From positions 1-42,594 of IMG/VR virus record IMGVR_UViG_3300048694_000741: 42,594 nucleotides of DNA; one strand, 5' to 3'. Origin of the DNA: a virus. Below are positions 22,083 through 40,277 of the stretch, one piece after another; within the stretch, counting starts at the first letter, position 1; the number at the start of each line of letters is the position of its first letter. The notes under the pieces are model-generated. The model had not been told where the DNA came from and ran no database searches. It worked only from the letters and a program-made list of their open reading frames with translations. The position numbers and the translations under genes were made by a program.

Positions 22083-25000
22083 TTATATGTTGAGGGAGAA
22101 ATCGTCTTCCTCATTTTCGCCTCTGGATTTATCGGCAGGACCCCCTTTATGTTTATCGGGGTTGTGCTGAGTCGATGGCATCTTAAGTTCAGGTTCTTCA
22201 TTGCTGCTACTGGTCTTATTATCAGTTGCATTGGGATTAGGACCTGATCTAGCAGCCGCTTCGTTAGCTTGCTGTTGGCCGCTGTTATCATTCTGAGCAG
22301 GGGGAGCAGGAGGAACCTTAGGACCTTCCTTACTCGTATCAGAAGACTGAGACGGGGGAACAATTTTATCGGCTGGCCTGTTTTGATTAGGTGGGGGTTG
22401 TTGTTGATTTGATGGAGAATTAGAGTCAGCTTGCTTATTATCAGGTGTAACATTTGTTTTTCCCAATAGAGCATCTTTATCTTTTTGCTGTTCAACAAAG
22501 TTATCAGTAGTTGTTGTTTTAACCGTTGCGTTACTAGGAACAATTGACGCTGATCCATCTGGATTAACATTCAATGTCAACTTACCGCCATTTCTTTTCA
22601 TCATATCTAACATATGAGCTTTAAAAGCTGGCCATTGGTCTTTTCTAACTGCAAGACACCCTGCACTATAAAGTTTGTCTAAATCTCTTGCAGAGTGTAA
22701 TAATATACCTTGCCTATCCGTGCCCCATTTTGGGTCATACATATTCTTAACCCCAAACGAATTATTGTTAAATCGCGGGTTATTAGAAGAATGCAATCCA
22801 GATTCTATTTGGAAAGAACCATATGGAATAGAACCTCTATGCATATCTCTATTATATGCGCCTGGAGCCCCTGTCCCATAATCATAAACTTTATCTTCAA
22901 CTGTCAATTTGCCTTTTACATAATCTGGTCTCGTTACTTGTTGCTGGTTTGAAACCTTTACCGCAGATTCCGTTGCAGTTTGAGGCGTAGGGTTAGACGC
23001 CATTTTAGTTTGTAATTCTTTGATTTGATCAAGCTGCTTTTGAATAGCTTCTTTATCACCATCGGGAGCTTTTGCTAATTGGCCTTCAAGATATTTCTGA
23101 GCATTATTCAGATCAGACATAGAAGACGATTTTCCAAGAGATGGTGCCCCATTTCCTAACATTCCAGGGGTAACTTTACCGCCTAATGCAGCTTGAACAT
23201 CACTTCTTTCCCAATGATTTCTTAAACCAAAATACATACCAGACATAGCATTTCTGGCATCTTCATAAGCCTTAGGATCGCCAGTCTTTAACCGTTCATA
23301 TATCTCAGGGTAACGCTTAGACAAATAATGATGCATTGCCCTAGTTTGTTCCTGAGGAGTCGAGTTTCCTCCTGCCCCTCCCCCATAAAGATGCTTGGCT
23401 ATGTTAGGATCAAGGCCATATTTCTTAATCGCCTCATTCACATCATGTCTGTTCATCTGGAAATGGCCATAATCGCCATATTCGGCTTTAGCCTCTTCCT
23501 CAGACATACCACGAGCCATAGCATTTCTTACATTAGCATTACCTTTTTTAATAAGTCTTTTGCCATCCCAAACGTCATTAGGAACATTGTTTCTATCAGT
23601 GTATGCTTCTTTTCTATCCCAATTCGTTTCTGATTGGGCAATAGCTCGGACAAACTTTAATTGATTTGCATCGATATCACTTAGGTCATCTGTGTTTTGC
23701 CCCTCAGGAGCATATAATTTTCCAACGCCAGATGCGTCAATAGTTTTTTCTTTAGGACCATCCGCCCGTCTTTCAGGACTTCCGTAATTAGAAGAATAAG
23801 GTACGTTTCCGCCCGTACCTCCTGGGGAACCTTGCGGTTGGCCAGAAGGTTGCCCAGACGGATCAATTGCCCATCCATCATAGGGAACATTAGGATTAGA
23901 AGGGGTAAACGGAGTATGTGTTGTTGAAGGTATTCCATAATTAGACGTATAAGGAACAGAAAGCCCTTGGCCCATTTTCATCCGTTGTTGAATTGGACTC
24001 AGACCCTTTTGCTTTCTTCTATTTTTTACTGCTTGTCCGTCACCTTCTCCCGACTCTCCTGTATCTTCGGCATCAGCAACCATAAGTTTACTAGCAGTTT
24101 CAGAAACCTGATCCCAAAATGAATCAGGCATTTTCAATGTCGGAGTATCTAATATAATGCTAGATGCTTTTAACGTAAGTATCTTTTGGGCTTCAATGTT
24201 GATATGTTGAGATGAATAGACGTTCCAATCTTCAATCTTCTTAATATCACCTTCCTCTTGGAGACGATCTTCTCCCGATGATCCTTTTAGCTTACTAGGA
24301 GCTTTAGGAGTAACTATTGTATCATTTTGAGGATTGCCATTTTTGAACTTCTCTTGAGCTTTCTTTAAGGCCCCGTCATATCCTATTTTAGGGTCTTTTC
24401 TCATAGAGTTAAACCATTTCTTACGCTTTGATATTTCTTCCTGAGTCATATCAGGAGTAATGCCTAATGCGTCGTTAATGGTTGAATTACCAGAACCTAT
24501 CGTAAGTAATCCAGCAAGACTGCCTAGAATACCAATGCCACCTGCAATAGCAGGGATTGCCCCTCCTGGCAGTTTACTAAGAATTGAGGGTAATTCTGCT
24601 TTTTTATATGTTGATGCTTTTCCAAATGCCTCAGATGGTGACATTGGAGCTTTAATAGATGATTTGACCTTTTTAGTTGAATTGGTTCTTTCTCCCCCTG
24701 AGAAAGTGGGAGATTGTTTTACCTTAGCAGCTTCGGTTATCTTTTCTGATAACTTCATAAAATTAGTTGCTATTTTCTTAGACAGCGTATCAAATCTTTT
24801 TTCAGACCTGCTGTCTAATTCCTTAACAGCCTTCTCAACATTCTTTGCTAATAGTTTATCATTCTTTAATAATTCTCTACTCATTTTTTGAGCATGTTCA
24901 TCAACATCTTTAAGACCCTGTACCAAATCTTCAAAGGCCTTAAACTTTCTATTTGGCTCAATAGCAGACTTATCAATGATATCCTTAATACCATCTAGTT

Positions 25001-25340
25001 TATAATGAGCATTCAATAGTTCTCCAAAGATACCCATGTTCCCAAGGGTCTCTCTTTTGAGGATATCTAATCCTACTCTTTTGAATGCTTCTCCTAAACC
25101 AAACTGACCAGTCCGCCACATTTGGATCGCTTCTCCAAATGAGCCCATATTACCCAAAGTCTCTCTTTCAATAGTCTCGTATAGAGCCCCTTTTGATCTT
25201 TGACCAAAAGTCATATTATTAGTGGTATCTCTCCAATCTCTCCACGTAGGAGCCCCTGAGGTTTTTGGAGAAGATGCCTCTGATTTAACAGTGGATTGTA
25301 ATGCTTCTGAAAGTTTGCTAGCTGTTGATTTATCTACCAT
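22083..25340 (-). CDS. Tape-measure-like tail protein with lytic-transglycosylase-like and L,D-transpeptidase-like domains
   Basis: The 1085-residue product directly follows the gp26/frameshift chaperone pair, the usual place of a tape measure gene. The N-terminal third is helical with a Gly/Ala-rich hydrophobic stretch (GGIGILGSLAGLLTIG, around residue 260). Around residues 550-720 a lysozyme/SLT-like region has RAIAQSETNWD and YGDYGHFQMNRHD. Around residues 800-930 there is a transpeptidase-like region with VYDYGTGAPG, ILLHSARDLD and SAGCLAVRKD (a His and a Cys placed as in YkuD-type enzymes). The C-terminus is Pro/Gln/Asn-rich. It probably sets tail length or fills the tube and helps cut peptidoglycan during DNA entry. 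Confidence 0.65.
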   Translation of the reverse strand: MVDKSTASKLSEALQSTVKSEASSPKTSGAPTWRDWRDTTNNMTFGQRSKGALYETIERETLGNMGSFGEAIQMWRTGQFGLGEAFKRVGLDILKRETLGNMGIFGELLNAHYKLDGIKDIIDKSAIEPNRKFKAFEDLVQGLKDVDEHAQKMSRELLKNDKLLAKNVEKAVKELDSRSEKRFDTLSKKIATNFMKLSEKITEAAKVKQSPTFSGGERTNSTKKVKSSIKAPMSPSEAFGKASTYKKAELPSILSKLPGGAIPAIAGGIGILGSLAGLLTIGSGNSTINDALGITPDMTQEEISKRKKWFNSMRKDPKIGYDGALKKAQEKFKNGNPQNDTIVTPKAPSKLKGSSGEDRLQEEGDIKKIEDWNVYSSQHINIEAQKILTLKASSIILDTPTLKMPDSFWDQVSETASKLMVADAEDTGESGEGDGQAVKNRRKQKGLSPIQQRMKMGQGLSVPYTSNYGIPSTTHTPFTPSNPNVPYDGWAIDPSGQPSGQPQGSPGGTGGNVPYSSNYGSPERRADGPKEKTIDASGVGKLYAPEGQNTDDLSDIDANQLKFVRAIAQSETNWDRKEAYTDRNNVPNDVWDGKRLIKKGNANVRNAMARGMSEEEAKAEYGDYGHFQMNRHDVNEAIKKYGLDPNIAKHLYGGGAGGNSTPQEQTRAMHHYLSKRYPEIYERLKTGDPKAYEDARNAMSGMYFGLRNHWERSDVQAALGGKVTPGMLGNGAPSLGKSSSMSDLNNAQKYLEGQLAKAPDGDKEAIQKQLDQIKELQTKMASNPTPQTATESAVKVSNQQQVTRPDYVKGKLTVEDKVYDYGTGAPGAYNRDMHRGSIPYGSFQIESGLHSSNNPRFNNNSFGVKNMYDPKWGTDRQGILLHSARDLDKLYSAGCLAVRKDQWPAFKAHMLDMMKRNGGKLTLNVNPDGSASIVPSNATVKTTTTDNFVEQQKDKDALLGKTNVTPDNKQADSNSPSNQQQPPPNQNRPADKIVPPSQSSDTSKEGPKVPPAPPAQNDNSGQQQANEAAARSGPNPNATDNKTSSSNEEPELKMPSTQHNPDKHKGGPADKSRGENEEDDFSLNI

Positions 25341-25549
25341 GGAACGTCTTTAGGGTCTGTGAATACATGTTTTTCATTCTGACTTGATTGTGCCTTTTCT
25401 TGTAGTTCTCCACGAATAAAGTCATAATATACGTTACGTTCATACGGATACATGTTTTCAATTTCATTTATGTTAAATGAATGATGCTTTTTCATAACGA
25501 AGATGGTTTTATAAAAGTTTAGTAGGTCCTGTCCTGTTAGACAAAGATA
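25334..25549 (-). CDS. Tape-measure chaperone extension reached by -1 frameshift from gene 26
   Basis: In the -1 frame, 71 codons run from the slippery site at 25549-25555 to TAG 25336-25334 without a start at their beginning. They encode YLCLTGQDLLNFYKTIFVMK and then HHSFNINEIENMYPYERNVY. The H-H-S ... E-I-E-x-M-x-P-Y-E-R-x-x-Y pattern is of the type seen in T4-superfamily gp26/gp51-like and tail-chaperone extensions. The natural product is therefore a gp26 fusion, as with lambda G/GT. An internal ATG (25492) could also give a 53-residue separate protein. It overlaps the tape-measure start by seven bases. Confidence 0.65.
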   Translation of the reverse strand, partial: YLCLTGQDLLNFYKTIFVMKKHHSFNINEIENMYPYERNVYYDFIRGELQEKAQSSQNEKHVFTDPKDVPW

Positions 25550-26247
25550 AAAAAATCAGCTAACGATGACAGATTAATAACTCTTTCTGTTCCCTTTGAA
25601 TTAGTATAAGATATCTTATAAATCATAGAAGGGTCGGAATCCATAAAGTCACGTACTTGCTTTTTGATTTTCAATGGTAAGCCATCAATGAAATTAACTG
25701 TGTCTTCTTTTGTCAAGAAAGGCTGCACAGTCTCTTGACCATTCTTCTTAGTGACTAAAGAATCCACATGACGGAATATCATTTCGTCTTCGATTTCTAT
25801 ATTAGGCTTTCCTAACATACTTACGTCTGTATAGAATATAACACTAGGCCATTTCATTTTAATATATTGGTCAGAATCAATAACAATCTTAGAACTGATG
25901 TTTTCAGGGAAATCAACCTTTATGTCCGTTATGTTGATTTCAAAATCATATTCTTTATTGTCCTCATTGTCATTGTAACTAACTTTGATTATGTTATCTG
26001 CTGATATACCCCATAGTTGTAAAAACATCCATTCTAGGTCAAAAATAGTTAGAGAGTTTACATCAAACTTTTCATCAATAATACAATTATCGACAACCTG
26101 TTTAATTGATGATAGTATCTCTTTGATTTCCCCGCTTTGCTTGGCCATTAGAAGTAGTTTTTCATCTTTACCTGTAATTGGCCTTACATGGATTTTCTTC
26201 TGAGTAGAAGGAATCTCTAATTCACTTGTAGGATGGATAGTTTTCAT
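25537..26247 (-). CDS. 26: Baseplate hub assembly protein gp26-like (T4_baseplate family)
   Basis: The 236-residue product matches the gp26 family by its start (PSTQKKIHVRPITGKDEKLL), the long helix that follows, a central FDLEWMFLQLWGISAD motif and the C-terminal FIDGLPLKIKKQVRDFM region. In T4, gp26 helps build the baseplate hub. Here it directly precedes the tape-measure-like gene and ends in a run of seven T that is a perfect slippery heptamer, so a longer -1 fusion product is expected. The start has AAGGAAA as ribosome-binding site. Confidence 0.75.
   Translation of the reverse strand: MKTIHPTSELEIPSTQKKIHVRPITGKDEKLLLMAKQSGEIKEILSSIKQVVDNCIIDEKFDVNSLTIFDLEWMFLQLWGISADNIIKVSYNDNEDNKEYDFEINITDIKVDFPENISSKIVIDSDQYIKMKWPSVIFYTDVSMLGKPNIEIEDEMIFRHVDSLVTKKNGQETVQPFLTKEDTVNFIDGLPLKIKKQVRDFMDSDPSMIYKISYTNSKGTERVINLSSLADFFIFV
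25549..25555 (-). other. Slippery heptamer U UUU UUU for -1 frameshifting
   Basis: On the minus strand, codons GAU UUU UUU AUC of gene 26 contain seven consecutive U. The phase U UUU UUU lets both Phe tRNAs re-pair after a -1 slip. The new frame is open for 71 codons with conserved-looking sequence, while the zero frame stops four codons later. Confidence 0.6.
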
Positions 26248-26259
26248 TATTCGTTTTCC

Positions 26260-26940
26260 TTATCGTGTAGACATTGATAAATCTTGATTAAACCATGAGA
26301 AGAATGTGAATGTAACTGGCACTGCCATTATGTTGTTCATTTCTCCCCAATTCAATTGTATGTCAGATACCATTATAGGGTATGCTTCCTGTAGAATATA
26401 AACAGAGGACTTTTCCCCTGCATCGGTAAAGGTCGTTATTTCTACTACAGTTTCATAGTCACTCTTATATGATATTTCAAAAGGATCGAGCCTACTACCC
26501 CCTGCCCCTCTAGCTGTGATTTCACTACTAGTCCCCTTTATATCACCCTCTCGGAAGTCTTTATTGATGATACAAGTTTGCCATGTGTCAAAATACTTTT
26601 TGATGATCCCTTGGGCATCAGCTAAAAACACTAACGTAATATCAGTGAATATTGGAGTAAACGGCTTTTTCTCAATAGGACCATAGCTGTAACGTAAAAT
26701 GTCATGTGTAGCAACTGTATATCCTGGTAACGGTACTGCCATACACCAGAACTCTAACATTCTAGATGCCACATTTAAAATAGTGTCCCCTGCCATTAAA
26801 GCAGGGGGGAATATTCTTACAAAAAACTTGTTAGTCTTTTGTAGACCCTGAAATTGTTCTATCTTGGCGTTGAAGGACTCAATATTGAATCCTTCTCCCG
26901 ATTGCCTTTGACTTGGATTATTAGATGTTATTACTGGCAT
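26260..26940 (-). CDS. Tail-tube-fold baseplate protein (T4 gp19/gp54-like)
   Basis: The 226-residue product has tube-protein features. An N-terminal segment (TNKFFVRIFPPAL) is followed by EFWCMAVPLPGYTVATH, then a beta region FTDITLVFLAD, a FDTWQTCIINKDF helix, and a C-terminal VYILQEAYPIMVSDIQLNW strand pair. This order resembles T4 gp19 and the tube-initiating gp54. It is longer than gp19, and its place beside gp26 favours a hub/tube-junction role over the main tube. It shares one base with the upstream stop. Confidence 0.65.
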   Translation of the reverse strand: MPVITSNNPSQRQSGEGFNIESFNAKIEQFQGLQKTNKFFVRIFPPALMAGDTILNVASRMLEFWCMAVPLPGYTVATHDILRYSYGPIEKKPFTPIFTDITLVFLADAQGIIKKYFDTWQTCIINKDFREGDIKGTSSEITARGAGGSRLDPFEISYKSDYETVVEITTFTDAGEKSSVYILQEAYPIMVSDIQLNWGEMNNIMAVPVTFTFFSWFNQDLSMSTR

Positions 26941-30322: not shown

Positions 30323-31572
30323 TGCCTATACATAGAGTTGATGACAGTAGTGTTATTCTTCCAACTAAATGTAGATTAACACGGTTCACACTAAAGGGTG
30401 CAGAAATTAAACAACACGTTAGAGCCCTTAACGTGTATGAAAGTATTTACAAGCCATATATTACCATTCAAGCTGATGTTTTGGATAACGTTCCTGGTGG
30501 ACTGATTAAAAGCCTGGACCTTAAGCCTGGAGACCCAATAGAGTTTTCATTCGACTCTGTTGAAAACCAACCATATGATGGTAAGGTTTATTTGTCTGGT
30601 ATTGATAAGGACAAAAAGAAAAACAACCTACGTAGTACGTCCTATGTAATTGATGGCATCGGGCCAGCATGGTTTAGGGATCAACAGAGTATTGTTAAGC
30701 AGTCTTATCAATTCATTCCCGCAACTCAGGTTATGGCATCTATCCATAATAATTATGTCGGGGGAGATGCCCCATTAAGAATCCTAGATCAAAGCATTGG
30801 CCCTGTTGATCAAGAGGCTTATAGAGTATTCGGTATCAAGCCTTTTAAAGCTATAGAAAATCTTATGGCCAGAGCTACATATGGTAGTGTCAAGACGGGC
30901 ACTACAATGTATTACAGAGACCAGAACTCTTATGTATTATCCCCTCTAGAAACATTATTCAAACAATTACAGGCTCAAGAGACCTTTTTCCAGGATAATA
31001 CATTAGGACGTTATATAACGGACTTTGATAAAGCCAAGATTACTATAACTCAAATAGCAGCGCATGTTGACCAAACGAACCCTGGCAGACAGGGAGCTAA
31101 TAAGGTTGCCGCAGCTTCTAGCCAAGGCGTAGGTCATTTTAATCTTAGATCGTCCAAGAATACTATATTGCAAGCCAAGAAAATGATTACCTCTCAACTA
31201 GGACAAGCAATAAGAGGGGGAACCCCTCATGGTGGCAGGGCCAATTACTTTATGTTTGATCCATCTAAACTATCAAAAGAGCAGCAAGAGTTTCAAAAGG
31301 TAAGAGACGAAAACGCATATAAAGCTCAATTCATAAATGGAACAAACTTCACTGTTATGGTCCCGATAAATAATGGAACCAAACTTACAGTTGGTAAAGG
31401 TGTTGGTCTTAAACTATTAGCCCCTCAGGGAGATTTATCAACATACGCTGGTAGTGACCAATCAGGAGTTTATATGGTTACAACTCTTGTTCATGCTCTT
31501 ACATTTGGCGATACTTTAACCAACGGATTTACTTGTTTCGAATGTTCAGACGACGGGAACCAAAATGGCTAG
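30322..31572 (+). CDS. 27: Baseplate hub protein gp27-like
   Basis: The 416-residue product has a beta-rich N-terminal half (PTKCRLTRFTLKGAEIK, VYESIYKPYITIQADVLD, GDPIEFSFD) and a helical middle with KPFKAIENLMARATYG. This is the hub layout shared by T4 gp27, gpD and VgrG N-terminal domains. It should form the trimeric ring that holds the spike. The placement just before the OB-fold spike protein supports this. It overlaps the downstream leader-bearing protein gene by eight bases. Confidence 0.75.
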   Translation: MPIHRVDDSSVILPTKCRLTRFTLKGAEIKQHVRALNVYESIYKPYITIQADVLDNVPGGLIKSLDLKPGDPIEFSFDSVENQPYDGKVYLSGIDKDKKKNNLRSTSYVIDGIGPAWFRDQQSIVKQSYQFIPATQVMASIHNNYVGGDAPLRILDQSIGPVDQEAYRVFGIKPFKAIENLMARATYGSVKTGTTMYYRDQNSYVLSPLETLFKQLQAQETFFQDNTLGRYITDFDKAKITITQIAAHVDQTNPGRQGANKVAAASSQGVGHFNLRSSKNTILQAKKMITSQLGQAIRGGTPHGGRANYFMFDPSKLSKEQQEFQKVRDENAYKAQFINGTNFTVMVPINNGTKLTVGKGVGLKLLAPQGDLSTYAGSDQSGVYMVTTLVHALTFGDTLTNGFTCFECSDDGNQNG

Positions 31573-32092
31573 AAAACTTAGAGACGTATTAACAGAAGCC
31601 CCTTGGATTAACGATGAAATAAGTGAGAGAAAACCAAAACAGGTTGAAGTCACTCCCGCATCGGGAGAACATATCTCCAAAATGGGAAAAGGATATAACG
31701 TATTAAAAAACCATTTAGGAGATACAGAAGACGGTAAGAAAGTAACTTATACTGTGGCAGATAGACGTGGAAATGTTCATGTAAGAGTCCATGGAAATGA
31801 AAATGGCAATAGACTTGACGTTACCTCTTTGTATGCACCTGAGGGTAACAAAGTAGAAGCACATGATTTTTATCATCACTTAATTACACAACACGGAATA
31901 CATCTTCATTCTGATTATGAGCAATCCGAAGGGGGAATGAAGGTATGGAAGCGTCTTCAAAAGATGCCTGGAATCCATATGCAGTCATGGAATGGCTCAG
32001 ACCAAAAATACAGAGAACTGAAACCTTCATTTCAAAGAACATATGATATGGATAGCTCTACAAGATTAGCAGCTAAAAAACGAGGGACATAA
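31565..32092 (+). CDS. Putative packaged internal protein with L-x-E leader (175 aa)
   Basis: The N-terminus MARKLRDVLTEAPW fits a capsid-targeting leader ending in L-T-E, like those of the genes at 34941, 38220 and 42534. The rest contains a domain shared with the 34941 product: VEAHDFYHHLITQHG, then LHSDYEQSEGGMKVWKRLQ, compared with VRVHDVYDHLINKHG and IYSDTSHSEGAQRVWSRL. The repeated H-D-x-Y-x-H-L-I and S-E-G-x-x-x-V-W-x-R-L motifs suggest an alpha/beta fold of unknown activity. It lies between the hub and spike genes but does not look structural. Confidence 0.55.
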   Translation: MARKLRDVLTEAPWINDEISERKPKQVEVTPASGEHISKMGKGYNVLKNHLGDTEDGKKVTYTVADRRGNVHVRVHGNENGNRLDVTSLYAPEGNKVEAHDFYHHLITQHGIHLHSDYEQSEGGMKVWKRLQKMPGIHMQSWNGSDQKYRELKPSFQRTYDMDSSTRLAAKKRGT

Positions 32093-32622
32093 TGGTAAGA
32101 AATACATATGGCTCGCATAATGGCCAAACCTTTGTTGCAAAGGTTGTTGATCGTTTCGATAAAGAACAAAGAGGCCGCTTAAAGATTGAAATCCAAGGTG
32201 GTTATCAGGGACAAGACGGGGAATCGTTATGGGGTAATCCTGTCTATCCTGTTACGGGGGGGATGATGGGCGGTATTGGCGGTTTCGCTACAGGTGCTCT
32301 AGAAGACACAATGGTTGTTGGTTATTTTGCCGCTGATGGGTTGCCTATGATTACAGGAACCATTGCAGCTTCTAACAAAGAAGATGAATCTAACGATCCT
32401 ATCGGTAAAGATAGAAACCACGATATTCATAGAATATCCCGTGATAAGACAAAGAAGGGGGGAGACTATCGTTTTGATCCCGATCAAAAGAAATACGGGG
32501 ATGAAAGTATAACTGTTTATGCTCGTGATAAGTTTCCGAATCCTCATGGGCGCAGACACACAAGAGAATATGACGATGAAACTACGTTTACAATTGGGGT
32601 AACGAAGTTTGGGGACGCCTAA
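32092..32622 (+). CDS. 5: Central spike OB-fold protein (gp5 N-terminal domain without lysozyme)
   Basis: The 176-residue product has the gp5 OB-domain pattern. AKVVDRFDKEQRGRLKIEIQ is followed by LWGNPVYPVTGG, EDTMVVGYFAADGLPMITG and a C-terminal PNPHGRRHTREYDDETTF stretch. T4 gp5 continues into lysozyme and beta-helix domains in one chain. Here the OB part ends at 176 residues, and the beta-helix is separate (33107). It shares one base with both neighbours (TAATG-type overlaps). Confidence 0.75.
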   Translation: MVRNTYGSHNGQTFVAKVVDRFDKEQRGRLKIEIQGGYQGQDGESLWGNPVYPVTGGMMGGIGGFATGALEDTMVVGYFAADGLPMITGTIAASNKEDESNDPIGKDRNHDIHRISRDKTKKGGDYRFDPDQKKYGDESITVYARDKFPNPHGRRHTREYDDETTFTIGVTKFGDA

Positions 32623-33107
32623 TGAGTAGAAAGAACGCAACAGCCTATATTAAGAAACTCAATCCCAAGAATAAGAGTGGAGCTATTAAAGAAGCTCTGA
32701 ACCTCTTAGAGAACCTGAAAAAGGTAAAGGGAATGATGAACCCAAATGTTCCAAGTGCTGTCGGAGCTTCTAATCTACAGAATGCAATATCTCAAGTAGC
32801 CAAGGATTTTGCTGCCCCTGTTGATCCAATTGATCAAGACGTGTTGACGCTTGAAAAGATATTGAGAAAGCTAGGGCCTAGATACGGTCTATTGGTTGAT
32901 GACGTTATTAAGTTTGGTAAAGAGATATTCGGTTATCTAACATTTGACCTAACGCTTTCTGTTCCTGATGATACACTTGATAGATTGTCTCAGGATATTA
33001 AAGCCTTAACCGAATTACGTTCTCTGATTACCACGTATGAAACCATTCTAGACAATTCAGTGGCCGCAATCAAAGATATTAGAAAGATAACAGCAGAGAA
33101 TAGATAA
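32622..33107 (+). CDS. Helical protein between the two spike genes (161 aa)
   Basis: The product is helical (KSGAIKEALNLLENLKKVKG, then ITTYETILDNSVAAIKDIR) with a short hydrophobic piece in the middle (GYLTFDLTLSVP). It sits between the OB-fold spike protein and the beta-helix protein, overlapping both by a base. It could be an adaptor or chaperone for spike assembly, or an occupant of the lysozyme position. Nothing muralytic is visible in it. Confidence 0.5.
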   Translation: MSRKNATAYIKKLNPKNKSGAIKEALNLLENLKKVKGMMNPNVPSAVGASNLQNAISQVAKDFAAPVDPIDQDVLTLEKILRKLGPRYGLLVDDVIKFGKEIFGYLTFDLTLSVPDDTLDRLSQDIKALTELRSLITTYETILDNSVAAIKDIRKITAENR

Positions 33108-33682
33108 TGGTAAACAAACCTAATAGACTAAATGATACAACAGCTACAACTGAATACCCTTATGTCCAGGCGATGGTATTAGAAGGGGGTCATCAGCTTA
33201 TATTTGGTAATCGTCCTGGTAATCGCTTTATTCGTCTAGCTCATGGTAAGTCAGGTAGTTATATTGAAATGTCCGAAGACGGTAAAATGGTTACTCATGT
33301 AACAGGCAATCAACAGACCATGAATAAAGGTGGAGTTACCTTGACGGTTGAAGAGAACAACGACGTGAAAATCCATGGCCATAATCGAGTTATAACAGAC
33401 GGGGGATCGCATATTGAAGTTAAGGGAGATGCCTCAATCGCTACAGGAGGACAGGTAGCCTTGTTATCCATGGGCGGTATGAATGTTGGAGTCGTCGGAG
33501 ACGTTTATCTTGGGGCAACAGAGAACCTGAAAATGAACGTAATGGGTAATATGGATATGCAGATTAAGGGAAATCAGACAGTCAATATTGGAGGGAGCCA
33601 AACAACCACAGTCGGGGGAACTGTGACAACTCAGTCTGATGGAAACAATACAACGCTTGCCCCTCGAATAGATCACAACTAG
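33107..33682 (+). CDS. Spike triple-stranded beta-helix protein (gp5 C-terminal-like)
   Basis: The first ~75 residues are gp5/VgrG-like beta strands (HQLIFGNRPGNRFIRLAHGK, then SYIEMSEDGKMVTHVTGN). From about residue 85 onwards there are short repeats of V-x-I-x-G type (VKIHGHNRVITDGGSHIEVK, then GDVYLGATENLKMNVMGNM and QTVNIGGSQTTTVGG). These are the strands of a trimeric beta-helix. It should form the membrane-piercing needle beneath the hub, topped by the PAAR protein at 34658. Confidence 0.75.
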   Translation: MVNKPNRLNDTTATTEYPYVQAMVLEGGHQLIFGNRPGNRFIRLAHGKSGSYIEMSEDGKMVTHVTGNQQTMNKGGVTLTVEENNDVKIHGHNRVITDGGSHIEVKGDASIATGGQVALLSMGGMNVGVVGDVYLGATENLKMNVMGNMDMQIKGNQTVNIGGSQTTTVGGTVTTQSDGNNTTLAPRIDHN

Positions 33683-34658: not shown

Positions 34659-34948
34659 TGCCTGGGGCTCATAGAAATGGTGATTCAAGAGCATGTGGAG
34701 CGGCAACTATTGTCGTGATGCAAAGCACTGTCTTTGTGAATGGCCAATTATGGGCCGTTCTAGGAGACATTGATAGCCATGGGGATGGCCAATTAACTCC
34801 CACTGGTACAACTGTGTTTGCAGGGGGATTACCCGTAGTGGTGTTAGGCGATCCTGCTATTCCTGATGATGAATGCCCAATTTTAGACGGGCCTCATTGC
34901 AACCCCAAAACAGTTACAGCATCAGGAGACACTTTCGCTTATGGATAA
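34658..34948 (+). CDS. PAAR spike-tip protein
   Basis: The 96-residue product follows the PAAR plan: an N-terminal PGAHRNGDSRACGA, repeated VFVNGQLWAVLGD and VFAGGLPVVVLGD strands, and metal ligands in DSHGDG, CPILDGPHCNP. A cone-shaped, zinc-bound tip on the beta-helix needle is expected. It shares one base with the previous gene and overlaps the next by eight bases. Confidence 0.85.
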   Translation: MPGAHRNGDSRACGAATIVVMQSTVFVNGQLWAVLGDIDSHGDGQLTPTGTTVFAGGLPVVVLGDPAIPDDECPILDGPHCNPKTVTASGDTFAYG

Positions 34949-35549
34949 TTCTAAGATACTTTCATTCAAGGAAATGTTATATGAAATGCCAGAACGGAAT
35001 AGTATAACAAGGGAAACTCCTGGATACACTGTTACAGATGATGAGGAAAAACTATTTTCTAATAAGATATTTGATCGTAAAAACATGGGTAGATTACCAT
35101 CTGGCCATAGAATATATCATGTAACAGATGGTCCTAATAGTGGTGGGCATATATTAGCTTATCATCCAAAAGACAATAAAATAGAAGCAAGAATTGGTCT
35201 GAGACGAAATAATACAGACGCCTATCAGGAACAATCTCTTAGTAAAAGAAAAGGTTCTACTGTTAGAGTGCATGACGTATATGACCATCTTATAAATAAA
35301 CATGGATGGACAATTTATTCTGATACATCACATTCTGAGGGTGCTCAACGTGTATGGTCTAGACTGAGAGATAAATTAAGACAATCAGGTGGTAAGATGC
35401 ATCACCTTGACGTTACGGGAAACACTACATTTGCAGGTAAACCTATGCACATGTATTACAATGAGCCTAGTGTTTTTATGGCAACTCCGTCTCCTAGCGT
35501 AAAAGAAAGATTACAAAAGAGGTTAGGACGTGGCAAGAGCGGAACGTAA
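34941..35549 (+). CDS. Putative packaged internal protein with L-x-E leader (202 aa)
   Basis: The N-terminus MDNSKILSFKEMLYEM matches a capsid-targeting leader, with cleavage expected after L-Y-E. The body shares a domain with the 31565 product: RVHDVYDHLINKHGWTIYSD, then SHSEGAQRVWSRLRDK. Before it lie beta strands (IYHVTDGPNSGGHILAY, then IEARIGL), and after it a basic tail. The mix of a leader with a non-structural domain among baseplate genes suggests a protein carried in the capsid and delivered to the host. Enzymatic activity is unknown. It overlaps gene 25 by 20 bases. Confidence 0.55.
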   Translation: MDNSKILSFKEMLYEMPERNSITRETPGYTVTDDEEKLFSNKIFDRKNMGRLPSGHRIYHVTDGPNSGGHILAYHPKDNKIEARIGLRRNNTDAYQEQSLSKRKGSTVRVHDVYDHLINKHGWTIYSDTSHSEGAQRVWSRLRDKLRQSGGKMHHLDVTGNTTFAGKPMHMYYNEPSVFMATPSPSVKERLQKRLGRGKSGT

Positions 35550-37792: not shown

Positions 37793-38218
37793 ATGGCTAA
37801 CCTAACTCGTAATGAAGCTTTAGAGAGACTAGAAAAACTGCCGTGTAATTATGATGGGTGTTTAACAACTATTCTTCCTTTACAGGAGTTTGATGGATTT
37901 GTGGTATCTGGCGGAAAGCGGGTTGGACGCAATTCCAGTCCGTATAGATGTGAATGGGATTATATGAAAGAGAACGGAATTAAGAAATTAATACCTGTTA
38001 GGGCTATTGTCACAAGACAGTCTAATGTGTCTAAAGAGGCAATTGCCCTAAAAATTAGGGGTAAGTTCCAAGATCATGAGCCTAATTACCCGTATACATA
38101 TCATCATAGAGGTTATTATTATTTGATTGATGGAAACCATAGAGCCATGAAAGCAACGTTATTAGGGCAAGATTATATGTGGGCTTACGTTGCAGATGGC
38201 AGACCATACAGGAGTTAA
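37793..38218 (+). CDS. ParB/sulfiredoxin-like late protein (141 aa)
   Basis: The second half holds a ParB/Srx-type core. It reads LIPVRAIVTRQSNVSKEAIA, then LKIRGKF, and YYYLIDGNHRAMKATLLGQ with the G-N-H-R box. This segment is clearly related to residues 75-150 of the neighbouring 38220 protein (VPVKSIVTSQ, then HYLLDGNHRVAKARLLGQ, then VADARPF), so the two genes are tandem relatives. It lacks the L-x-E leader. A nucleotide-dependent activity on host components is possible but not shown. Confidence 0.6.
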   Translation: MANLTRNEALERLEKLPCNYDGCLTTILPLQEFDGFVVSGGKRVGRNSSPYRCEWDYMKENGIKKLIPVRAIVTRQSNVSKEAIALKIRGKFQDHEPNYPYTYHHRGYYYLIDGNHRAMKATLLGQDYMWAYVADGRPYRS

Positions 38219-38219
38219 G

Positions 38220-40277
38220 GTGTTATCATTCAAGGCGTTCTTAGTCGAGGCTAAAAGAACTAGACCCCAAGCCCAAAAGATTCTCAAAAGAATAACCCCT
38301 CGCCTAGGCAGGGGGTATCATGATGGTGATATATCTACAATCATTCCTCATGAATATTATCCAGCCTTTAGAACGCCAGATGGTAGGGCAATAGGAGATA
38401 ACTATGAGAACCAACATACATACGCAGATACCAAAGGCAAACTGAAAAATGTTCCTGTAAAATCTATTGTAACAAGTCAAAGCACTATTAATTCAGGGGT
38501 CCTTAAAAAGAAAATCCAGGGGAAATGGACAGAACCTCATTATCCAGATATTCCAACTGCCATACATCATAATGGGGTTCATTATCTATTAGATGGAAAT
38601 CATAGAGTAGCAAAAGCTAGATTGCTTGGCCAATCACATATACTCATGAAAGTTGCTGATGCTAGACCCTTTGAAAATGAAGACTATAAGAAAGAATATA
38701 AAAAGAAGTTTCCTGATCCTGTAGATGAGGCATTTGAAAAGAAAACGTATGTCCTTTGGAAAGAGGAAATAGAAACGGCTTATCATCCTGATTTAGATAT
38801 TCAGCCTAATAAGCCGTTTCAATACATTAGGAATACGAAATCAGCAAAGAAATACACGAGGCATTTACAAGATGATCCGTTTGCTCAGAAATTGGAGCCC
38901 GCAGGTAGATACATGCAAGCCTCTAGTATGGTGCCCTCGCATCTTGAACCCCATATGGAAGTTGGAACACATACGTTTACCAATCCCCTCTACATCAAAT
39001 GGGGAGAAAGTGGACTTTACCGTAATCCTGACAACTGGAAACATGTATTAAGCAACCATTACAAAGGAAAGAAAGGGAAGCGGTTATCACAAGCCATTCG
39101 TGATAGTGGGCATGATGGTATTGTTACAGTTGGTTATCACAATGGTAAACCGCATACCAGTGAAGTTGTTGACCTTACAATGTATAGACCCCAAAAGATA
39201 AATGAGAAATGGTCAACAGAAAGATACGAATCTCCTAGAACGGGCAAGAAAATATTTGCCCGTAACCAAACAACCATTGATGGCCATCATGTGGACGTTC
39301 ATTTCTCGGGGACGGGAGATAAAGATTTCAGTGTGAACTATATGGTAAATGGTTCATATTGGAGAAGTCCTAAAATGGACAAGAAAACTGGCCAAAAGAT
39401 TATAGGCCATGTGCACCGCTCCATTATGAGCTTTGCAAGGCACATGAGACCTGCTAGCCTTAACTTCTCCTCTTCAAAGGATAGGAACATAGACCTACAT
39501 GCAAAGCTTTCTGCTAGGCTAGCCAGACGACACAAAGGTAGTGTGGAGACAAGACAGGTGACAGACCTAACGCACCATACAGTCAAGTTTCCAATGACTG
39601 AAAGCGTCAAAGACGTTGAAGACGAAATCAAGGCTCAGCATGGCGTTGATTTAAATATATACCATGATTCAAAGAACAATGACATTCACTTAGCCCATAT
39701 TTCTGTTCCTAAAGGAAAACGAAAACAAGGAATTGGATCAGCGGCAATGAAACATTTAACTGCCTACGCTGATAAACATGGACATAGAATACGTTTGGAT
39801 TTGGCTGATAGAGATTACTCATTCGGGACCACTAGTAAAAATAGATTGAGACGCTTTTATGGTCGATTTGGGTTCGTCAGTAACAAGGGAAGAAACAAGG
39901 ATTTCACGATAAGATCGTCAATGTATAGGAAGCCATCTACAATGACAGAAAGCGTGTCTGATTATATTCCAATTCATAGAGGAGAAAGCGTTCATAATAA
40001 GGCTGGTGGGCCTATGGGCGGTAAGTTTTATTCAACTGATAAAGAATGGGCTAGACAGTTTACACAGACTGGCAGATTGAGCGAAGTAAAAACCAGATAT
40101 ATACACAAGGATCATGTTTTGGATAAGTCCAATGTCTATGCAGGAGATGACATTGAGCCCCATCTACACGAGGCCAAAAACAATGGTTATGCGGCAGTCC
40201 GCTTTCATGAGGGTAATGGAGAGCCACATTCCATCTATGTAATAAATCATTCTAAGCTAAGGTTTACACAAAGGTAA
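38220..40277 (+). CDS. Multi-domain putative injected effector: leader, ParB-like, ART-like, GNAT, ART-like
   Basis: AGGAG at 38210-38214 fixes the start at GTG 38220, giving 685 residues beginning MLSFKAFLVEA, a capsid-targeting-type leader ending L-V-E. A longer frame from 38190 lacks a ribosome-binding site. The order is: ParB/Srx-like (about 75-150, DGNHR); a region with HTFTNPLYIKWG and RDSGHDGIVTVG (about 225-325), reminiscent of ADP-ribosyltransferase-type polyvalent domains; a basic domain (330-445); GNAT acetyltransferase (about 465-570, HISVPKGKRKQGIGSAAM); and a second ART-like end (580-685, GGKFYSTDKEWARQF and NNGYAAVRFHEG). M-T-E-S-V linkers occur at 459-463 and 575-579. T4 packages and injects the ART Alt, and this may be an analogue. 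The ART calls are tentative. Confidence 0.6.
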   Translation: MLSFKAFLVEAKRTRPQAQKILKRITPRLGRGYHDGDISTIIPHEYYPAFRTPDGRAIGDNYENQHTYADTKGKLKNVPVKSIVTSQSTINSGVLKKKIQGKWTEPHYPDIPTAIHHNGVHYLLDGNHRVAKARLLGQSHILMKVADARPFENEDYKKEYKKKFPDPVDEAFEKKTYVLWKEEIETAYHPDLDIQPNKPFQYIRNTKSAKKYTRHLQDDPFAQKLEPAGRYMQASSMVPSHLEPHMEVGTHTFTNPLYIKWGESGLYRNPDNWKHVLSNHYKGKKGKRLSQAIRDSGHDGIVTVGYHNGKPHTSEVVDLTMYRPQKINEKWSTERYESPRTGKKIFARNQTTIDGHHVDVHFSGTGDKDFSVNYMVNGSYWRSPKMDKKTGQKIIGHVHRSIMSFARHMRPASLNFSSSKDRNIDLHAKLSARLARRHKGSVETRQVTDLTHHTVKFPMTESVKDVEDEIKAQHGVDLNIYHDSKNNDIHLAHISVPKGKRKQGIGSAAMKHLTAYADKHGHRIRLDLADRDYSFGTTSKNRLRRFYGRFGFVSNKGRNKDFTIRSSMYRKPSTMTESVSDYIPIHRGESVHNKAGGPMGGKFYSTDKEWARQFTQTGRLSEVKTRYIHKDHVLDKSNVYAGDDIEPHLHEAKNNGYAAVRFHEGNGEPHSIYVINHSKLRFTQR

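Follow-up and report, generated by a model that had tools for sequence, protein, structure and literature searches.

Conserved U UUU UUY heptamers at the end of gene 26 point to a frameshifted, two-length tail assembly chaperone in relatives of phage T4

The window analyzed here is the whole of IMG/VR record IMGVR_UViG_3300048694_000741 (positions 1 to 42,594; 42,594 bases), which is a fragment. The record holds one gene 26 locus, on the minus strand, and a conserved open frame that is joined to gene 26 only via the −1 frame. The features of the locus, in the direction of transcription, are as follows:

26260..26940, minus strand: tail tube or tube-initiator-like gene directly upstream of gene 26 (phrog_45 'tail tube', E=4.1e-22; PF23849, E=1.2e-11)
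25537..26247, minus strand: gene 26 homologue with a short product of 236 aa, the proposed short tail assembly chaperone (PF12322, phrog_150, AlphaFold)
25555-25549, minus strand: slippery heptamer U UUU UUU in the zero frame (X XXY YYZ phase), three sense codons upstream of the gene 26 stop, read from the sequence
25528..25545, minus strand: weak 7-bp hairpin UUUGUCU-AACA-GGACAGG, a possible stimulator (MFE −5.1 kcal/mol)
25334..25549, minus strand: −1 frame extension of 71 codons plus TAG, the gp51-type C-terminal domain of a proposed long product of ~304 aa (phrog_634)
25493..25495, minus strand: ATG inside the extension, not accepted as its main start (no Shine-Dalgarno sequence, position not conserved)
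22083..25340, minus strand: next gene, 1085 aa, tape measure candidate by position; its start overlaps the extension stop (weak Shine-Dalgarno sequence, −0.9 kcal/mol)

The short protein matches PF12322 (T4_baseplate) over residues 6-233 (E=2e-39; 136 bits against a curated cut-off of 24.5) and phrog_150 'baseplate hub' (E=1e-41). On the minus strand its gene ends GCT GAT TTT TTT ATC TTT GTC TAA, and the heptamer that the initial annotation had placed at the gene 26 end is indeed in frame there. That annotation also held that a −1 slip opens 71 further codons, and the frame is open for exactly this length, from 25549 to 25337, with a TAG stop at 25336-25334 and the product YLCLTGQDLLNFYKTIFVMKKHHSFNINEIENMYPYERNVYYDFIRGELQEKAQSSQNEKHVFTDPKDVPW; the junction peptide predicted for the long form of the window phage is VINLSSLADFFYLCLTGQDLLNFYK. 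The extension stop and the start of the next ORF overlap by 7 nt (ATGGTAG, in which the ATG is 25340-25338). Nearby T4-type genes encode a gp4-like head closure protein, a gp2-like DNA end protector, and a tube-like protein, and the opposite strand encodes tube-cap, wedge, gp5-, gp25-, and gp6-like proteins; the locus thus belongs to a tail module of the T4 superfamily. A search at the DNA level among isolate phages gave no match, and no separate full-length gp51 paralogue of gp26, as in T4, was found in the window record, itself a fragment.

Relatives were collected by gene 26 homology, with the heptamer as no criterion. The isolates fetched were phages of Sinorhizobium, Methylophilales, Vibrio, Aeromonas, Cronobacter, Delftia, Agrobacterium, Ochrobactrum, Stenotrophomonas, and Pseudomonas, plus cyanophages, and were joined by one marine single-cell record; all have an in-frame T TTT TTY beside the gene 26 stop, followed by a homologous −1 ORF. 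Two scans of IMG/VR, likewise by gene 26 homology, contributed 160 loci, and after removal of one exact duplicate the total was 178; some contigs are common to both scans, and 161 loci are left at 99% identity, 101 at 70%, and 24 at 40%. In-frame U UUU UUY is present in 178/178 loci (131 TTTTTTC, 47 TTTTTTT), at a distance of 0-3 codons from the stop (8 codons in one locus), and the gp51-like −1 ORF is 53-75 codons long, ORFs cut by contig ends aside. The same arrangement occurs in Aeh1, Ahp1_CNU-2021, phi-Grn1, and Xanthomonas X1, and the phiM9 heptamer is U UUU UUG (TTTTTTG). Both the T-run shared by relatives and the one-frame fusion that the initial annotation had suggested looking for were therefore found, the latter in T4 gp51, and a search for relatives in which the extension has a conserved start of its own and no slippery site found none. 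Upstream of the slip the −1 frame closes at a median of 8 codons; the extension therefore does not belong to a longer, overlapping gene. The joined product is marked in none of the annotated relatives' records examined. In the records of S-WAM1, ZPAH1, S13, Atu_ph04, and Aeh1 the extension is unannotated, and about 55-65 codons are absent from the protein sets.

Profile searches used the narrower alignments, the very diverse ones being without a conserved stretch. The extension matches phrog_634 'baseplate hub assembly catalyst' over residues 2-60 (E=3.9e-16), which bears out its earlier description as conserved, and it has a further match to phrog_150, at the C-terminal end of that family. 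Two residues are invariant in its alignment with 55 IMG/VR homologues, and its predicted structure consists of helical segments (pLDDT 75.7).

A gp51-type protein made alone, as a separate gene started at the ATG at 25495 and perhaps by termination-reinitiation, is the alternative that survives best, and we consider it improbable. It is implied by most public annotations, many records listing gp51 as its own short gene, and about a third of relatives do have an ATG at extension codon 2-4. However, the ATG of the window lies 42 nt beyond the gene 26 stop and has no Shine-Dalgarno (SD) sequence, with a best duplex energy of +1.6 kcal/mol vs. −6.2 kcal/mol at the gene 26 start. Among relatives the first ATG of the extension ranges from codon 1 to codon 55 and is lacking altogether in 5/101; the first 13 extension codons hold no ATG in 91/174 loci, and none of ATG, GTG, and TTG in 50/174. 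In loci that are ATG-less over these 13 codons, substitutions between the slip and the first ATG are distributed over −1 frame codon positions 1/2/3 as 0.20/0.24/0.56, and this weight on position 3 indicates that the −1 frame is protein-coding ahead of any start. Separate genes would, moreover, leave the invariant heptamer and frame unexplained. The independent product from the internal ATG that the initial annotation had offered is accordingly rejected: the ATG is present, but it lacks an SD sequence, its position is not conserved, and coding constraint extends further upstream.

Frameshift stimulators were examined in the 101 loci by anti-SD duplex energy and by the RNA stability of the 60 nt past the heptamer relative to synonymous recodings. 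Mean anti-SD complementarity is highest in 8-nt windows starting 14-17 nt upstream of the heptamer, close to the spacing of 9-14 nt reported for SD-like elements in −1 frameshifting (PMC5009743). In the U6C loci this element has a mean of −6.7 kcal/mol, with 81% at or below −5 vs. 13% elsewhere in the gene, and it beats the synonymous expectation in 56 of the 62 loci; the GAG ratio of Glu codons is 42:16 in the motif and 673:1538 in gene bodies. The element is mostly absent from U7 loci (present in 23%). Downstream structure has a mean z of −2.67 in U6C loci (n=62) and −3.57 in U7 loci (n=39), against −0.08 to −0.69 in controls. Ungapped RNAalifold consensus folding of all U7 or all U6C loci yielded no common structure, and because the hairpins vary in place and sequence between clades, a single stem-loop motif is not claimed. 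The type of stimulator varies with clade and heptamer, U6C occurring with the SD-like element and U7 mostly without it; hairpins directly past the slip site are very strong in some relatives, such as the perfect 14-bp stem of S-PM2, and absent from others. In the window, no SD-like element is present 9-14 nt upstream (best duplex energy +1.2 kcal/mol), and the weak hairpin does not differ significantly from synonymous recodings (z −1.26, p about 0.10); thus, slippage in the window phage would depend chiefly on the U7 heptamer.

Slippage by RNA polymerase is conceivable on a T7 run such as that of the window, and the mixed mRNAs that result would fuse the two frames. Yet the TTTTTTC heptamer of most relatives is a run of six T followed by C, and transcriptional slippage has no need for the NNT TTT TTY phase, for an SD-like element, or for a hairpin placed for the ribosome, so that we regard it as very improbable. 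Still less credible is that the T-run reflects mere codon choice for Phe-Phe in an AT-rich gene, with no fusion of frames. Phe-Phe is nearly invariant as protein, in the conserved motif LxGLxxFF, and TTT makes up 65% of Phe codons (TTC 35%); however, slippery Phe-Phe pairs elsewhere in the same genes number 1/89, vs. no exception at this site in 101 loci. The residue preceding Phe-Phe varies (D, S, N, A, T), yet its codon ends in T at every locus, and the first Phe codon is TTT throughout. If independence of the 101 loci is assumed, log10 P is −21.3 for the preceding codon and −19.2 for the first Phe codon, values that are too extreme because the loci share kinship; the 24 groups at 40% identity show zero exceptions to the pattern. 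The −1 frame is, in addition, open and conserved in every relative. Homopolymers are prone to sequencing error, but the possibility raised initially, that a single gene has been broken by a sequencing or assembly mistake in the T-run, is negligible, since two further IMG/VR contigs from different samples are identical to the window over 930 nt, seven T included, and the same phase recurs in the 178 relatives, many of them isolates.

Gene 26 therefore very probably encodes a tail assembly chaperone of two lengths by −1 frameshifting on U UUU UUU. We infer the slippage itself, its frequency, and the chaperone role from what the sequences hold, namely the heptamer, the open frame, homology, and conservation, together with the selection that acts in relatives on codons and on RNA structure. 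Most ribosomes would terminate at the gene 26 stop and yield the 236-residue short form, and a minority would slip back one base on the heptamer, where both tRNA-Phe can re-pair perfectly, and would thereby bypass the stop and add 71 codons, producing a long form of ~304 residues with a gp51-type C-terminal domain. If the pair worked like lambda gpG/gpGT, numerous copies of the short form and a few of the long one would coat the tape measure protein, the predicted product of the next gene; the long form would recruit the tail tube protein through its C-terminal domain, and both forms would be absent from the finished tail. The AlphaFold model of the short form has a mean pLDDT of 92.9, and its structure matches in BFVD are gp26-type proteins. 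A PDB fold search with this model gave no significant match, a weak one being the HK97 tail assembly chaperone 2ob9 (E=1.2, probability 0.38, 84 aligned columns), and a sequence search against solved structures gave no real match.

The arrangement resembles the tail assembly chaperones G/GT of lambda (Xu, Hendrix and Duda, 2004, as described in PMC5009743) in that a short ORF is followed by a −1 frame extension, the long form is the short form plus a C-terminal domain, and a long ORF follows directly, here a tape measure candidate by position; it differs in its slippery site, U UUU UUU/C. The G/GT-type logic proposed initially is upheld by the universal heptamer, by the gp51 homology of the −1 extension, by coding constraint ahead of the ATG, and by the in-frame fusion in T4 gp51. 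The same logic applies to TAC-N/TAC-NC of Vandenendeviridae and Andersonviridae, which also have a poly-T shift site and a −1 frame open in all relatives, whereas their shift motif is GTTTTT and the phage lineage is another (Adele, PMC12846349).

PMC3004832 counts T4 gp26 and gp51 among the hub assembly chaperones. Both are matched by PF12322 (gp26, 208 aa, 8.8e-64; gp51, 249 aa, 3.9e-52), and BLASTP aligns them with each other at E=2e-6. The phrog_634 domain lies at residues 147-246 of gp51, which covers phrog_150 to its end. In the alignment, gp26 ends with GLKEFFELL where the short forms end, sharing their GLxxFF terminus, and gp51 runs on in frame into the extension; gp26 therefore corresponds to the short form, and gp51, as gene 26 domain plus extension, to the long form. 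Unlike the frameshifting loci, 26 and 51 are paralogous genes on opposite strands, and at Phe-Phe T4 gene 26 reads GAG TTC TTT GAG, which is not slippery; the slippery site is likewise absent at the gene 26 end of phiAS4 and a Krischvirus. By this alignment, T4 carries the putative short and long forms as paralogous genes and not as frameshift products. The initial description of 26 and 51 as separate genes hence holds for T4, where there are two, but gene 51 is a full gene 26 paralogue with the extension attached.

In a tree of 47 gene 26 domains, which is unrooted and has many weakly supported inner branches, a single branch (97/97) separates split-gene proteins from frameshifters, so that one state change is needed. 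A single duplication within Straboviridae is the simplest reading of the origin of separate 26 and 51, because Straboviridae hold both states and the other lineages examined hold only frameshifters. Cyanophage gp51 has been described as about 20% of the usual length and without the first 200 residues, and gp51 as missing only in Aeh1 (Sullivan et al., 2010; PMC3037559). Aeh1 has the −1 ORF, unannotated, and the short and long forms as T4 paralogues would explain both the 'truncated' cyanophage protein and the one 'missing' in Aeh1. The cyanophage 'gp51' (T4-GC 12, phrog_634) is placed like the extension, −1 to gene 26 and with U UUU UUC, but was annotated as stand-alone (Sullivan et al., 2010); we interpret it as the C-terminal portion of a frameshifted protein. 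More broadly, we lean somewhat towards a scenario in which −1 frameshifting with selected stimulators is ancestral and nearly superfamily-wide, in marine cyanophages and in Straboviridae of the Aeh1/KVP40 type, the T4 clade having exchanged it once for a duplication into 26 (short) and 51 (long), and in which translation of the tape measure may need frameshifted ribosomes.

A review gives the frameshift as conserved in long-tailed phages 'except T4' (PMC5009743). This apparent exception would be resolved if relatives of T4 fuse gene 26 and gp51 by frameshifting and T4 has split the two forms; the T4 hub proteins gp26 and gp51 would gain a role, as short and long chaperone, and recoding replaced by gene duplication would have a natural case. 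The comparison also suggests that many marine phage records misannotate or omit the gp51-type protein. Vladimirov et al. (2022) had recognized tail assembly chaperones in T4-like phages earlier, and the title of that work proposes a mechanism other than frameshifting. It is cited for T4-like phages that have a short gene and a long one (PRFect; PMC10885494) and for poly-T frameshift signals in T4-like TAC-N genes (Adele, PMC12846349); going by these citations, the 26/51 paralogy and some T4-like frameshift sites have probably been published. In the literature, with Vladimirov et al. (2022) represented by its title and citations, we found no statement that U UUU UUY is nearly universal beyond the T4 clade, nor of a selected SD-like element and structure or of this explanation of gp51 in cyanophages and Aeh1.

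The extension had been said to end at the start of a tape-measure-like gene. The ATGGTAG overlap agrees with this, and the name tape measure is positional, as no sequence similarity between the 1085-aa protein and T4 gp29 could be detected; the protein also had no family match in profile searches, and similarity to the downstream gene of the Aeh1 type was not found. Of the 93 relatives in which the next gene could be identified, 56 share the overlap between its start and the extension stop, and the SD sequence at this start is often weak; this suggests as a hypothesis that translation of the tape measure may be coupled to frameshifted ribosomes. The candidate (22083-25340, minus strand) contains a hydrophobic segment rich in glycine, and its long C-terminal regions have an enzymatic look, with a stretch that is lysozyme-like by eye and a sub-threshold Tlde1-type match (E=0.08). 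The gp5-like spike apparently comes in two pieces, one with the OB and one with the beta-helix portion (32092-32622 and 33107-33682, plus strand), which match phrog_430 at positions 15-141 and 329-499. No lysozyme domain is visible between them, and the tape measure candidate may have taken over a lytic domain from the spike. The baseplate genes also include two similar small proteins (31565-32092 and 34941-35549, plus strand), without Pfam matches, and a 695-aa protein with a GNAT acetyltransferase domain (38190-40277, plus strand).
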